From a bacterium GBS-1 (GTDB taxonomy: Bacteria; Synergistota; GBS-1): DNA of 64,000 bases. Position numbers and translations under genes: made by a program. The notes beneath the pieces were generated by a model. The model was not told the DNA's origin and did no database searches. It saw only the letters and a list, made by a program, of their open reading frames with translations. Location: the NCBI GenBank assembly GCA_001443005.1, contig LEKQ01000015.1:62001-126000 (forward strand), given 5' to 3'. Positions 7,209 through 39,975 of this stretch are shown here, one piece after another. Each line of letters opens with the position of its first letter. Position 1 is the first letter of the stretch.

Positions 7209-7673
7209 TTGTTAATTGTTCCAAAGAAAGCAACCCTTGTCGTAGGTAAAGGAGAGGGAAAAACCCATTTAACAGCTTTTGACAAAGCCCTACTTTCAGC
7301 AGGTATAGGTAACTATAACCTCCTTAAGGTTAGTAGCATACTTCCCCCACACGTTGAGATAACCGAGAGCTTCTCCGTTCCCTTTGGCGCTCTTTTACCC
7401 GTGGCTTATGGAAGCATTACGAGCGAGGAACCTGGTCAAAGGATATCAGCAGCGATAGGTATAGGCATTCCTGAAAACCCAGATGATGTAGGGCTTATAA
7501 TGGAGTTTACCGGTTTCTGCTCTGCAAAAGAAGCTATGGAAATAGTTGAAGATATGGTCAGAGAATCTTTCGAAATGCGAGGACAAGCCCTAAAAGAGGT
7601 AAGGAGCAAAGCTATAGAGCACATCGTTGAAAAGATAGGTTGCGTTATCGCCGCCACAGTGCTATGGGGTTGA
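7209..7673 (+). CDS. pdaD: Pyruvoyl-dependent arginine decarboxylase
   Basis: The family cleaves itself to form a pyruvoyl group and converts arginine to agmatine. Here the sequence shows TLVVGKGEGKTHLTAFDKAL, AGIGNYNLLKVSSILPP with the Ser-Ser autocleavage site (Ser42-Ser43 in my numbering), PVAYGSITSE, and the MEFTGF segment that carries the catalytic Glu. GGAGG at 7196-7200 overlaps the GTGs at 7200 and 7203. The TTG at 7209 has 8-base spacing and gives 154 residues, close to known archaeal enzymes. It overlaps speB, which uses its product. This pyruvoyl route is common in archaea and scattered in thermophilic bacteria. Confidence 0.92.
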   Translation: MLIVPKKATLVVGKGEGKTHLTAFDKALLSAGIGNYNLLKVSSILPPHVEITESFSVPFGALLPVAYGSITSEEPGQRISAAIGIGIPENPDDVGLIMEFTGFCSAKEAMEIVEDMVRESFEMRGQALKEVRSKAIEHIVEKIGCVIAATVLWG

Positions 7674-8500
7674 AGTTCATAGGGGCCTCTCACAAACTGA
7701 GGGGCTCCAAGATCATTCTCTGGGGAGTCCCCTTAGATGAAACCACGAGCTTTCGCCGAGGAACCTCTTCCGGCCCTGAAAGAATAAGACTGATGTCCTA
7801 CGGGCTTGAAACATACTCCCCTATTTCCGATAGGGATCTATCGGAGATTATCTTCTTCGACGCCGGAGATATACTTATTCCCCGAGGAAACATCGAAAGA
7901 AGCGTTAAAAACATAGAGAGCTTCGCTTACAGTTTCCTAAAGCGCGGATTTAAGCTCCTAACCCTCGGCGGAGAGCACCTGATCTCCCTTCCCTTAGTAA
8001 GCGCAGCTTTCAGGATCTTTCCCAACCTTAAGGTCATACATCTTGATGCTCACGCGGATCTGCGCGAACACTACCTCGGAAATCACCTATCCCACGCGAG
8101 TGTAATGAGAAGGATATGTGATTTCTTACCCCCTTCAAATCTCTACCAGCTAGGGATAAGATCCGGTACAAAGAAAGAGTTTGAATTTGCTAAAAATAAC
8201 GTCAGCTTACTCTCGCCGAGCTTAACTGATATAGAAAAGATAATCGAAAGCGATTTGAAAGAAAGCCCGATCTATTTAACTTTAGATATAGATGTGGTGG
8301 ATCCAGCGTTCGCGCCAGGCACGGGAACACCCGAACCTGGCGGAGTTACGCCCAGGGAGATCTTTGACTTTCTGAAAAAGCTAAGGGGGCTAAACATAAT
8401 AAGCGCTGATGTAGTTGAGATCTCTCCCCCAAACGACATCTCCGATATCACATCTTTACTTGGAGCAAAGATAGTTAGGGAAATACTCTTTCTCCTTTAA
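7664..8500 (+). CDS. speB: Agmatinase
   Basis: This belongs to the arginase/agmatinase family of two-Mn enzymes. The metal-binding motifs are visible in order: GGEHLISLP, VIHLDAHADLR with HLSHASVM after it, and LTLDIDVVDPAFAPGTGTP. It hydrolyses agmatine to putrescine and urea. The longer frame starts at a TTG at 7640, well inside pdaD. The ATG at 7664 overlaps the pdaD stop by 10 bases and gives 278 residues; a TTG at 7670 is also possible. There is no separate Shine-Dalgarno site, so translation is likely coupled to pdaD. Its 3' end overlaps the convergent amidohydrolase gene by 26 bases. Confidence 0.92.
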   Translation: MGLKFIGASHKLRGSKIILWGVPLDETTSFRRGTSSGPERIRLMSYGLETYSPISDRDLSEIIFFDAGDILIPRGNIERSVKNIESFAYSFLKRGFKLLTLGGEHLISLPLVSAAFRIFPNLKVIHLDAHADLREHYLGNHLSHASVMRRICDFLPPSNLYQLGIRSGTKKEFEFAKNNVSLLSPSLTDIEKIIESDLKESPIYLTLDIDVVDPAFAPGTGTPEPGGVTPREIFDFLKKLRGLNIISADVVEISPPNDISDITSLLGAKIVREILFLL

Positions 8501-9933: not shown

Positions 9934-10743
9934 TCACACCTCCCAGAATAAGGAGAAGTTTATTACGGCTCGATGAAGATCTGGAGAGTAAACCCTAGTC
10001 TTAACGCGAGAATCCCTTCTAAAGTTGATGGGATCTACCGATTTAGACCCTAAGGAGAAAGTCCATAAACCACCTGGATAAGTGGGAACAACAGCCCAAT
10101 AGAGGGTCTTAAACTTAAAGAGTTCGCCCAGATAGTTTTGAACCCTTCCTATCAACTTGCCCATTATAAACGGGTTCTCAGTTTGAGAGCAACAAACACC
10201 ATCGCTTCCCAAGATCCTATAAACGGAATCGAAGAACTCCTTGCTGAAGAGCTGTTCAGCAAAATCGTAAGGATCGGTGGAATCAACTAAGACTACATCG
10301 AAACTCTCCTTCGTCTCTCTAACAAACTTCACGCCATCCTCAAACAAAAGCTCAAGGCGAGGATCAGATAAAGCGGAAGAAACCTCTGGGAAGAACTCCC
10401 TACAAACATCAACTACCCGCTTATCTATCTCAACCATAACTACTCTCTCAACTTGGGGGTGCTTAAACACCTCTCTAACTGCACCTCCATCCCCCCCTCC
10501 TATTACTAACACCTTTTTAGGGGAGGGATGAGTAAACATAGGAACATGGACAAGCATCTCATGATAAAAGGCCTCATCCTTTTCAGAAAGCTGAACCGCT
10601 CCATTAAGAACGAGAACCTTGCCATGATTCTCCGTAAGAACTACCGCTATCTCTTGATAATCGCTCCTTTCCAAGTGCAAAACTTTAAGAACTTTTAGAG
10701 AAGATGTCTGTCCCTCTATCCTATCGTTCAACCATAACTCCAT
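9934..10743 (-). CDS. speE: Spermidine synthase (polyamine aminopropyltransferase)
   Basis: This 269-residue protein transfers an aminopropyl group from decarboxylated S-adenosylmethionine to putrescine. It contains the substrate-lid segment LNGAVQLSEKDEAFYHEML, the nucleotide-binding VLVIGGGDGGAVREV, VVMVEIDKRVVDVC, and the catalytic DSTDPYDFAEQLF. The usual Gly-Pro after DSTDP is replaced by Tyr-Asp, a small departure from most family members. The gene begins with ATG and is 14 bases from the DUF763 gene upstream. The decarboxylase that feeds it (speD) is at 29710-30111, away from this cluster, while putrescine comes from pdaD-speB opposite. Confidence 0.94.
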   Translation of the reverse strand: MELWLNDRIEGQTSSLKVLKVLHLERSDYQEIAVVLTENHGKVLVLNGAVQLSEKDEAFYHEMLVHVPMFTHPSPKKVLVIGGGDGGAVREVFKHPQVERVVMVEIDKRVVDVCREFFPEVSSALSDPRLELLFEDGVKFVRETKESFDVVLVDSTDPYDFAEQLFSKEFFDSVYRILGSDGVCCSQTENPFIMGKLIGRVQNYLGELFKFKTLYWAVVPTYPGGLWTFSLGSKSVDPINFRRDSRVKTRVYSPDLHRAVINFSLFWEV

Positions 10744-29665: not shown

Positions 29666-29709
29666 AACGCCACTTCCTCAAAAATCTAACCCTCACCAAA
29701 GGAGGGGAT

Positions 29710-30111
29710 TTAGGATGTGGCCTCATCAAAAAATTGGGTAGGGGTTAGATCTTTGTGCCTCCCCCGTTGCACCTCCAAAGTTGTTACTTTCTTGCTTTCC
29801 AAAACCTCCGTAAGATAATCAAAAGCTTTCCAGGGGTCTGCGGTTTCACCGCAGGTAAACAAATCAATAGCTGCGTAACCGTACTCAGGCCAGGTATGGA
29901 TGGCCAGGTGGGACTCCGAGATAACCACAACACCACTCACCCCATAGGGTTGGAATTTTCTAAAAACAACATCAACTACTTCGGCTCCTGTTCTAACAGC
30001 AGCCTCCACCATAACTTCTTGCAAAAATTGGATGTTATCAAGTAATTCAGGGTTACACTCGTAAGCCTCCACCAGGACATGCCTGCCCAAGGCCTTGTCG
30101 GTTACCCTCAA
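29710..30111 (-). CDS. speD: S-adenosylmethionine decarboxylase proenzyme
   Basis: SpeD makes decarboxylated S-adenosylmethionine for spermidine synthesis. The prokaryotic-type sequence matches the Thermotoga enzyme closely: [37 protein letters not shown], and [17 protein letters not shown]. Self-cleavage is expected between Glu66 and Ser67, with His72 and Cys87 as helpers. The reading frame opens at a TTG at 30135, but AAGGAGG precedes the TTG at 30111 by 8 bases, giving a normal 133-residue protein. A consensus promoter and structured leader lie upstream. speE and pdaD-speB are 19 kb away on this molecule. Confidence 0.95.
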
Positions 30112-30150
30112 TCCAACCCCCTCCTTTCTTTTCAATCTGCAAATTTAAAA

Positions 30151-30185
30151 ACGGGAAGCCGCCCACTCCGGGCTTAACCCCCCGT
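30151..30185 (-). promoter_or_regulatory. Structured leader with attenuator-like hairpin upstream of speD
   Basis: In the untranslated leader of speD, ACGGG (minus strand, 30185-30181) pairs with CCCGT (30155-30151) and AAGCC (30175-30171) with GGCTT (30160-30156), with a 5-base bulge between. Immediately after, the sequence TTTTTAAATTT follows, as in a Rho-independent terminator. An alternative small hairpin (GCCC/GGGC around GGAGT) shares bases with it. The element ends about 40 bases before the start codon. It may be an attenuator or a riboswitch platform, but I recognise no known riboswitch class. Confidence 0.45.
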
Positions 30186-30204
30186 CCATATTCATGCTAA
30201 GATA

Positions 30205-30232
30205 ATTATAACGACATTGTTCTAGATGTCAA
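30205..30232 (-). promoter_or_regulatory. Promoter of speD
   Basis: A perfect -35 TTGACA (30232-30227) and a perfect -10 TATAAT (30210-30205) are separated by 16 bases. This is the strongest promoter in the window. Transcription would start near 30198, giving a leader of about 87 bases before the TTG at 30111. Confidence 0.85.
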
Positions 30233-39942: not shown

Positions 39943-39975
39943 AAAAAAGCAAGCATGGAATAACCCCACGCTTGC
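39943..39975 (-). terminator. Terminator between tRNA-Arg and rpoB
   Basis: On the minus strand GCAAGCGTGG (39975-39966) pairs with CCATGCTTGC (39958-39949), with one G-T wobble, around a 7-base loop, followed by TTTTTT. It likely ends the transcript carrying tRNA-Arg; it could also act as an attenuator of rpoBC. Between it and rpoB, TTGCTT and TAGTAT (18 bases apart) form a weak promoter candidate. Confidence 0.85.

Follow-up and report, generated by a model that had tools for sequence, protein, structure and literature searches.

The speD leader in the 64-kb window (the whole stretch of DNA that was analysed) is, judged from its sequence, a family-specific, terminator-bearing leader. On balance, we somewhat favor reading it as a transcription attenuator by anatomy, with a ribosome at the 5' end as its most plausible controller. 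Whether the speD message is completed is probably decided by the cell once transcription has begun. Transcription from the strong speD promoter would mostly end in the U tract, approximately 50 nt in, and read-through would follow if the 5' strand of the hairpin stayed occupied during the passage of RNA polymerase. The 5' end would most likely be held by a ribosome or by some other bound factor; such a ribosome would be translating a 16-codon frame that extends across the terminator, in the manner of pyrBI-type attenuation.

Promoter and predicted terminator of speD

The speD gene is located on the minus strand (29710..30111), with a conserved TTG start codon (30111-30109), and its 133-aa product, S-adenosylmethionine decarboxylase, matches TIGR03330 (E 1.2e-45, 154 bits). 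A perfect TTGACA/TATAAT promoter with 16-base spacing had been described ahead of speD in a first-pass annotation of the window, and it was recovered here as the sole 12-of-12 promoter match within 7 kb. The hexamers do not differ in the relatives (Table 1), whereas the spacer does, with 6-10 of its 16 bases alike. From this promoter down to the TTG start the sequence reads AGCATGAATATGGACGGGGGGTTAAGCCCGGAGTGGGCGGCTTCCCGTTTTTAAATTTGCAGATTGAAAAGAAAGGAGGGGGTTGGA. An inverted repeat over the -35 element (GACAT...ATGTC) was taken as chance and is absent from G001.

Table 1. Features of the speD leader and 3' end, in window coordinates
Feature	Position	Strand	Basis or state in relatives
-35 element TTGACA	30227..30232	(-)	Identical in G001 and G002
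-10 element TATAAT	30205..30210	(-)	Identical in G001 and G002
Predicted speD leader, ~87 nt	30112..30198	(-)	Start A30198 predicted from the -10 position
Possible leaderless uORF ATG..TAA, MNMDGGLSPEWAASRF then stop	30145..30195	(-)	Spans terminator; open in three genomes
Bulged terminator-like hairpin CGGGGGGUU-AA-GCCC-GGAGU-GGGC-GGCUUCCCG	30152..30184	(-)	Terminator score, consensus fold
Alternative early 5' hairpin CGGG/CCCG	30169..30184	(-)	Prefix folds; exclusive with terminator stem
Inner stem-loop GCCC-GGAGU-GGGC	30161..30173	(-)	Relatives GUCCUG-NNNN-CAGGGC; pairing kept
U tract UUUUU	30147..30151	(-)	UUUUU in G002, UUUU in G001
speD ribosome-binding region AAAGGAGGGGGTT	30115..30127	(-)	Identical in three genera
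3'UTR stretch AAUCCCCUCCUUU, 13-base complement of the speD ribosome-binding region	29698..29710	(-)	Duplex energies

Terminators were scored by using a Carafa-type d, with a 400-kb sample of stretches as the genome background. The bulged hairpin followed by TTTTT that had been annotated in a leader of about 87 bases was confirmed as a GC-rich element of 33 bases, recurring in G001 and G002, with scores of +25.0 in the window, +23.6 in G002, and +19.6 in G001. Only two sites on both strands of the window reached d of at least 20 (the speD leader and 39949, minus strand), and 26 sites reached at least 15 in 464 kb of the same genome, 19 of them intergenic. Because its score lies far above background in both the window and the genome, the speD hairpin with its U tract is, by this measure, a real terminator-like element. 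As in an intrinsic terminator, the GC-rich hairpin stands directly before the U tract in all three genera; as in an attenuator, a promoter lies 5' and a start codon 3' of it with no gene between, and the same holds in G001 and G002. The leader fold was 2.6 sd better than shuffled sequences (3/200 shuffles were equally good).

The hairpin is rather unlikely to be a constitutive 5' stem-loop that terminates weakly or not at all and serves to stabilize the speD mRNA or adjust its translation. Its location at the extreme 5' end and a U tract 4-5 long that is followed by AAAUUU would suit that role, but terminator scores of +20 to +25 over a low background do not, and a sequence identity beyond what pairing needs (described below) would be unexpected for a mere stabilizer.

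The other strong terminator of the window (39949-39975, minus strand, d 42) lies in the gap separating a tRNA gene from rpoB, 62 nt ahead of the rpoB frame, and may be a tRNA terminator or an rpoB attenuator. An agmatinase/arginase-family gene (7640-8500, plus strand) and a spermidine synthase gene (9934-10743, minus strand) each lie approximately 20 kb from speD, and neither carries a copy of the speD leader.

Distribution and conservation of the leader

A DNA search and a covariance search were run over 188 genomes of the phylum. The leader was present in three (G000, G001, and G002), which represent three genera of one family and are all of the family genomes in which speD was found; in a fourth family member, 77% complete, no speD was seen. 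Promoter, hairpin, and T run all recur in G002 and G001. Of the 60 columns in the block TGAATA...TTTGCA, 47 are invariant across the three genera versus 24 of 52 fourfold-degenerate speD sites (binomial probability of the leader count 3.5e-7, with columns taken as independent). The 3' terminators after speD, located in each genus between the same pair of convergent genes, have no sequence in common. Since leader identity exceeds that of silent sites while the 3' terminators are unrelated, the leader hairpin is, on this comparison, selected for its sequence and not merely for being a hairpin. Its outer stem (ACGGGGGGUU/GGCUUCCCGU) is invariant in the three genera, four G-U pairs included, and its inner stem is GCCC/GGGC in the window and GUCCUG/CAGGGC in the relatives, differing in length and sequence with pairing intact. 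Covariation among the leaders of relatives, which the first-pass annotation had proposed as a check, was nearly absent (1 of 24 pairs changed on both sides, with only three sequences available).

No other copy of the leader was found in its own genome by pattern search, in the other phylum genomes, or in viral contigs. The three best of the weak covariance matches were rejected: a pyrB leader, the terminator belonging to a leader that resembles a SAM riboswitch and precedes a metY-like gene, and an intergenic terminator. A peptide-degenerate pattern run over 84,980 genomes returned nine scattered matches, about the number expected by chance by our own estimate.

In several other genera the hairpin upstream of speD is a different one, [A/G]GCUAUCC...GGAUAGC, with a U run after it; in most cases it is placed 47-116 nt 5' of the speD domain match. 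The stem sequence of these hairpins is conserved and their loops vary. At nine such loci (L079, L082, L084, L086, L087, and L094-L097) promoter-like sequences precede the hairpin, some with a divergent upstream gene. At L013, L073, L077, and L081 a tRNA-Ala gene lies directly before speD with a terminator after the tRNA, and at L003 and L005-L009 speD follows an agmatinase-like frame with no terminator. Given the unrelated hairpins before speD in other genera, terminators upstream of this gene therefore recur with unrelated sequences, which suggests several origins of premature termination at speD.

Candidate modes of control

That the leader belongs to no known riboswitch class, as first annotated, was borne out by Rfam searches at gathering and permissive (E<=10) thresholds, which returned no riboswitch family and nothing relevant in the speD leader. 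A small alternative hairpin sharing bases with the terminator had also been proposed. It is present in the window, where CGGG (30184-30181) pairs with CCCG (30172-30169) at -7.3 kcal/mol before the 3' half of the terminator exists, but the relatives form another helix, AGGAC/GUCCU, at -6.4 kcal/mol. In all three genera the early hairpin and the terminator are mutually exclusive, and in prefix folds the terminator (-19 to -27 kcal/mol) overtakes. Of the claimed attenuator look, then, the architecture (promoter, terminator, and start codon in three genera) holds up, backed by the similarly placed terminator-like hairpins ahead of speD in other genera of the phylum, but the covariation is nearly absent and the alternative helix is not shared.

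Only approximately 14 nt lie between the predicted 5' end and the speD hairpin, which leaves no space for a separate upstream aptamer or antiterminator. With covariation near nil and the alternative hairpin paired differently in relatives, a classical aptamer/antiterminator switch is not supported by these comparisons, and sensing of SAM or polyamines by the leader would be a guess. RNA control of bacterial speD in the literature found consists of rare spermidine riboswitches, SAM-I variants with a separate aptamer and antiterminator (PMC10853860). These likewise place polyamine-synthesis genes under a 5' intrinsic terminator, but have a SAM-I-like aptamer and an antiterminator, whereas the speD leader neither matches SAM-I in Rfam nor leaves space for an aptamer before the hairpin.

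Among alternatives to ribosome control, control by a ligand or protein is the main rival. The hairpin, whose lower stem is rich in G-U and does not vary, would then be a metabolite- or protein-recognition element and the short frame accidental, a bound ligand or protein stabilizing or melting either the terminator or the early 5' hairpin. We give this a limited chance. The invariance of the outer stem goes beyond what pairing needs, an early 5' hairpin (-6.4 to -7.3 kcal/mol) precedes the terminator in all three genera, and the gapA leader of the same genomes indicates that RNA-only attenuators probably exist here; but the early hairpins pair differently between genera, no Rfam family matches, and no copy stands before other genes in the same genome or the 188 phylum genomes.

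Ribosome control, the favored reading, would depend on the putative uORF (16 codons), which starts approximately 3 nt from the predicted transcript start. Its start codon is at the same place in all three genera (ATG at 30195 in the window, GTG in G001 and G002), and a 3-nt indel among them leaves it in frame. The product in G002 would be MNKDGGLSPVSRAASRF followed by a stop; the frame in G001 (MNKDGGLSPGSRAASRFK...) has no stop at that place. The three differences that fall in the alignable L, S, and P codons are synonymous and other differences are non-synonymous; the three third-position changes show no excess over other changes in these three sequences. Eight third positions carry no change at all, which therefore points to RNA-level constraint besides any coding. 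The frame has no ribosome-binding site (SD), and its coding is regarded as possible. Neither mark of a trp-type attenuator is seen: no run of regulatory codons was found in the leader frame, and MNMDGGLSPEWAASRF ends after the U tract instead of before the terminator. No U-rich pause tract precedes the hairpin, just AGCAUGAAUAUGGA.

Attenuation at speD is credible because the same genome makes wide use of leader-peptide attenuators. The gene names used for these leaders were read off translations. Two Trp leaders of this genome contain NWWWQ (MFKKKEKTLSLSNHIMNWWWQAYKPAAA and ...KSNNWWWQVL, each followed by a stop), and the ilvN leader peptide MQASRCERGFVSIIALLVLVIIISLRRG (IIALLVLVIII; L132 ~3052, minus strand) is accompanied by a strong terminator (d 68). 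The speD leader is like these trp and ilv leaders in having a leader frame and a terminator ahead of a biosynthetic gene, but it has no regulatory codon run and its frame overlaps the terminator itself. The two Trp-run leaders, which have terminators, are located at L117 (~12555, plus strand) and L127 (~12310, minus strand), one of them before a transporter-like gene.

The layout of the putative speD leader frame recalls the pyrB leader found in these genomes. The pyrB frame starts at the predicted 5' end of its transcript, and in all three genera it stays open across the terminator even though indels occur. The pyrB leader loci (L104/L107 at G000:C12:13745-13825, L108, and L109; peptide MSGCRVKRMGDATRSLNKVGGLPREKGKPPIF...) have the form of a pyrBI-like attenuator. 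In PMC4824070, the E. coli pyrBI attenuator is given a 135-bp leader gene (Roland et al. 1988, as cited there). By that account, speD and pyrBI share a short leader, a frame through the terminator, a terminator less than ~100 nt from the start, and a gene immediately 3'; the speD frame differs in being 16 codons long, putative, nearly 5'-terminal, and without an SD, and the U-rich pause tract placed before the E. coli pyrBI hairpin does not precede the speD hairpin.

The gapA (GAPDH) leader (L118 ~2888, plus strand; L134 and L135) combines a GUGGC...GCCAC antiterminator with the terminator GCCACAUCUC...GAGGUGUGGC, kept in three genera, and no match was found for it (L118) in Rfam. It looks like an RNA-only attenuator, possibly a new one. 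In one genome an open frame runs through the gapA terminator and is not conserved as a peptide; caution is therefore needed against over-reading frames through terminators, and against the uORF reading at speD it can be said that such a frame can arise by chance.

Eukaryotic AdoMetDC (AMD1) is preceded by a very short upstream frame, MAGDIS, near the 5' end, which acts on translation. In both cases a gene for the same enzyme activity has such a frame ahead of it, but the frame sequences are unrelated, and the effect is on translation there and on transcription termination in the proposal here. We consider it improbable that the predicted leaderless peptide (M-N-x-D-G-G-L-S-P...A-A-S-R-F) is translated in a polyamine-responsive manner that sets speD transcription termination, as a bacterial counterpart of the AdoMetDC uORF. 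If the short frame does matter, this leader would provide a simple system in bacteria for studying how polyamine synthesis is controlled in a translation-coupled way.

Possible pairing between the 3' end and the ribosome-binding region

Directly after the speD stop codon (29710-29690, minus strand), CCCUCCUUUG..GAGGG is kept in the three genera. An unbroken run of 12-13 bases in this 3' stretch is complementary to the ribosome-binding region of speD itself (AAAGGAGGGGGUU); the duplex energies, one per genus, are -22.6, -21.8, and -25.2 kcal/mol. In a sample of 390 genes from the same genome, speD ranked third for such complementarity by duplex energy. The uninterrupted match is missing from most other speD loci of the phylum. 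Pairing between the 5' and 3' UTRs at speD is thus a possible, newly noticed feature, separate from the leader.

It is highly improbable that pairing of the 3'UTR element CCCUCCUUU with the ribosome-binding region is the main control and the 5' hairpin auxiliary. Besides the contiguous pairs in three genera and the high rank of speD, two of the three variable positions keep pairing, but the same element is readable as a local hairpin (CCCUC/GAGGG), and complementarity to G-rich SDs is not rare (speD ranks third, not first). In Staphylococcus aureus, a 3'UTR element of icaR is reported to pair with the ribosome-binding region. Within the speD leader, GGGGGGUU is the same 7 bases as in the SD, a possible case of SD mimicry.
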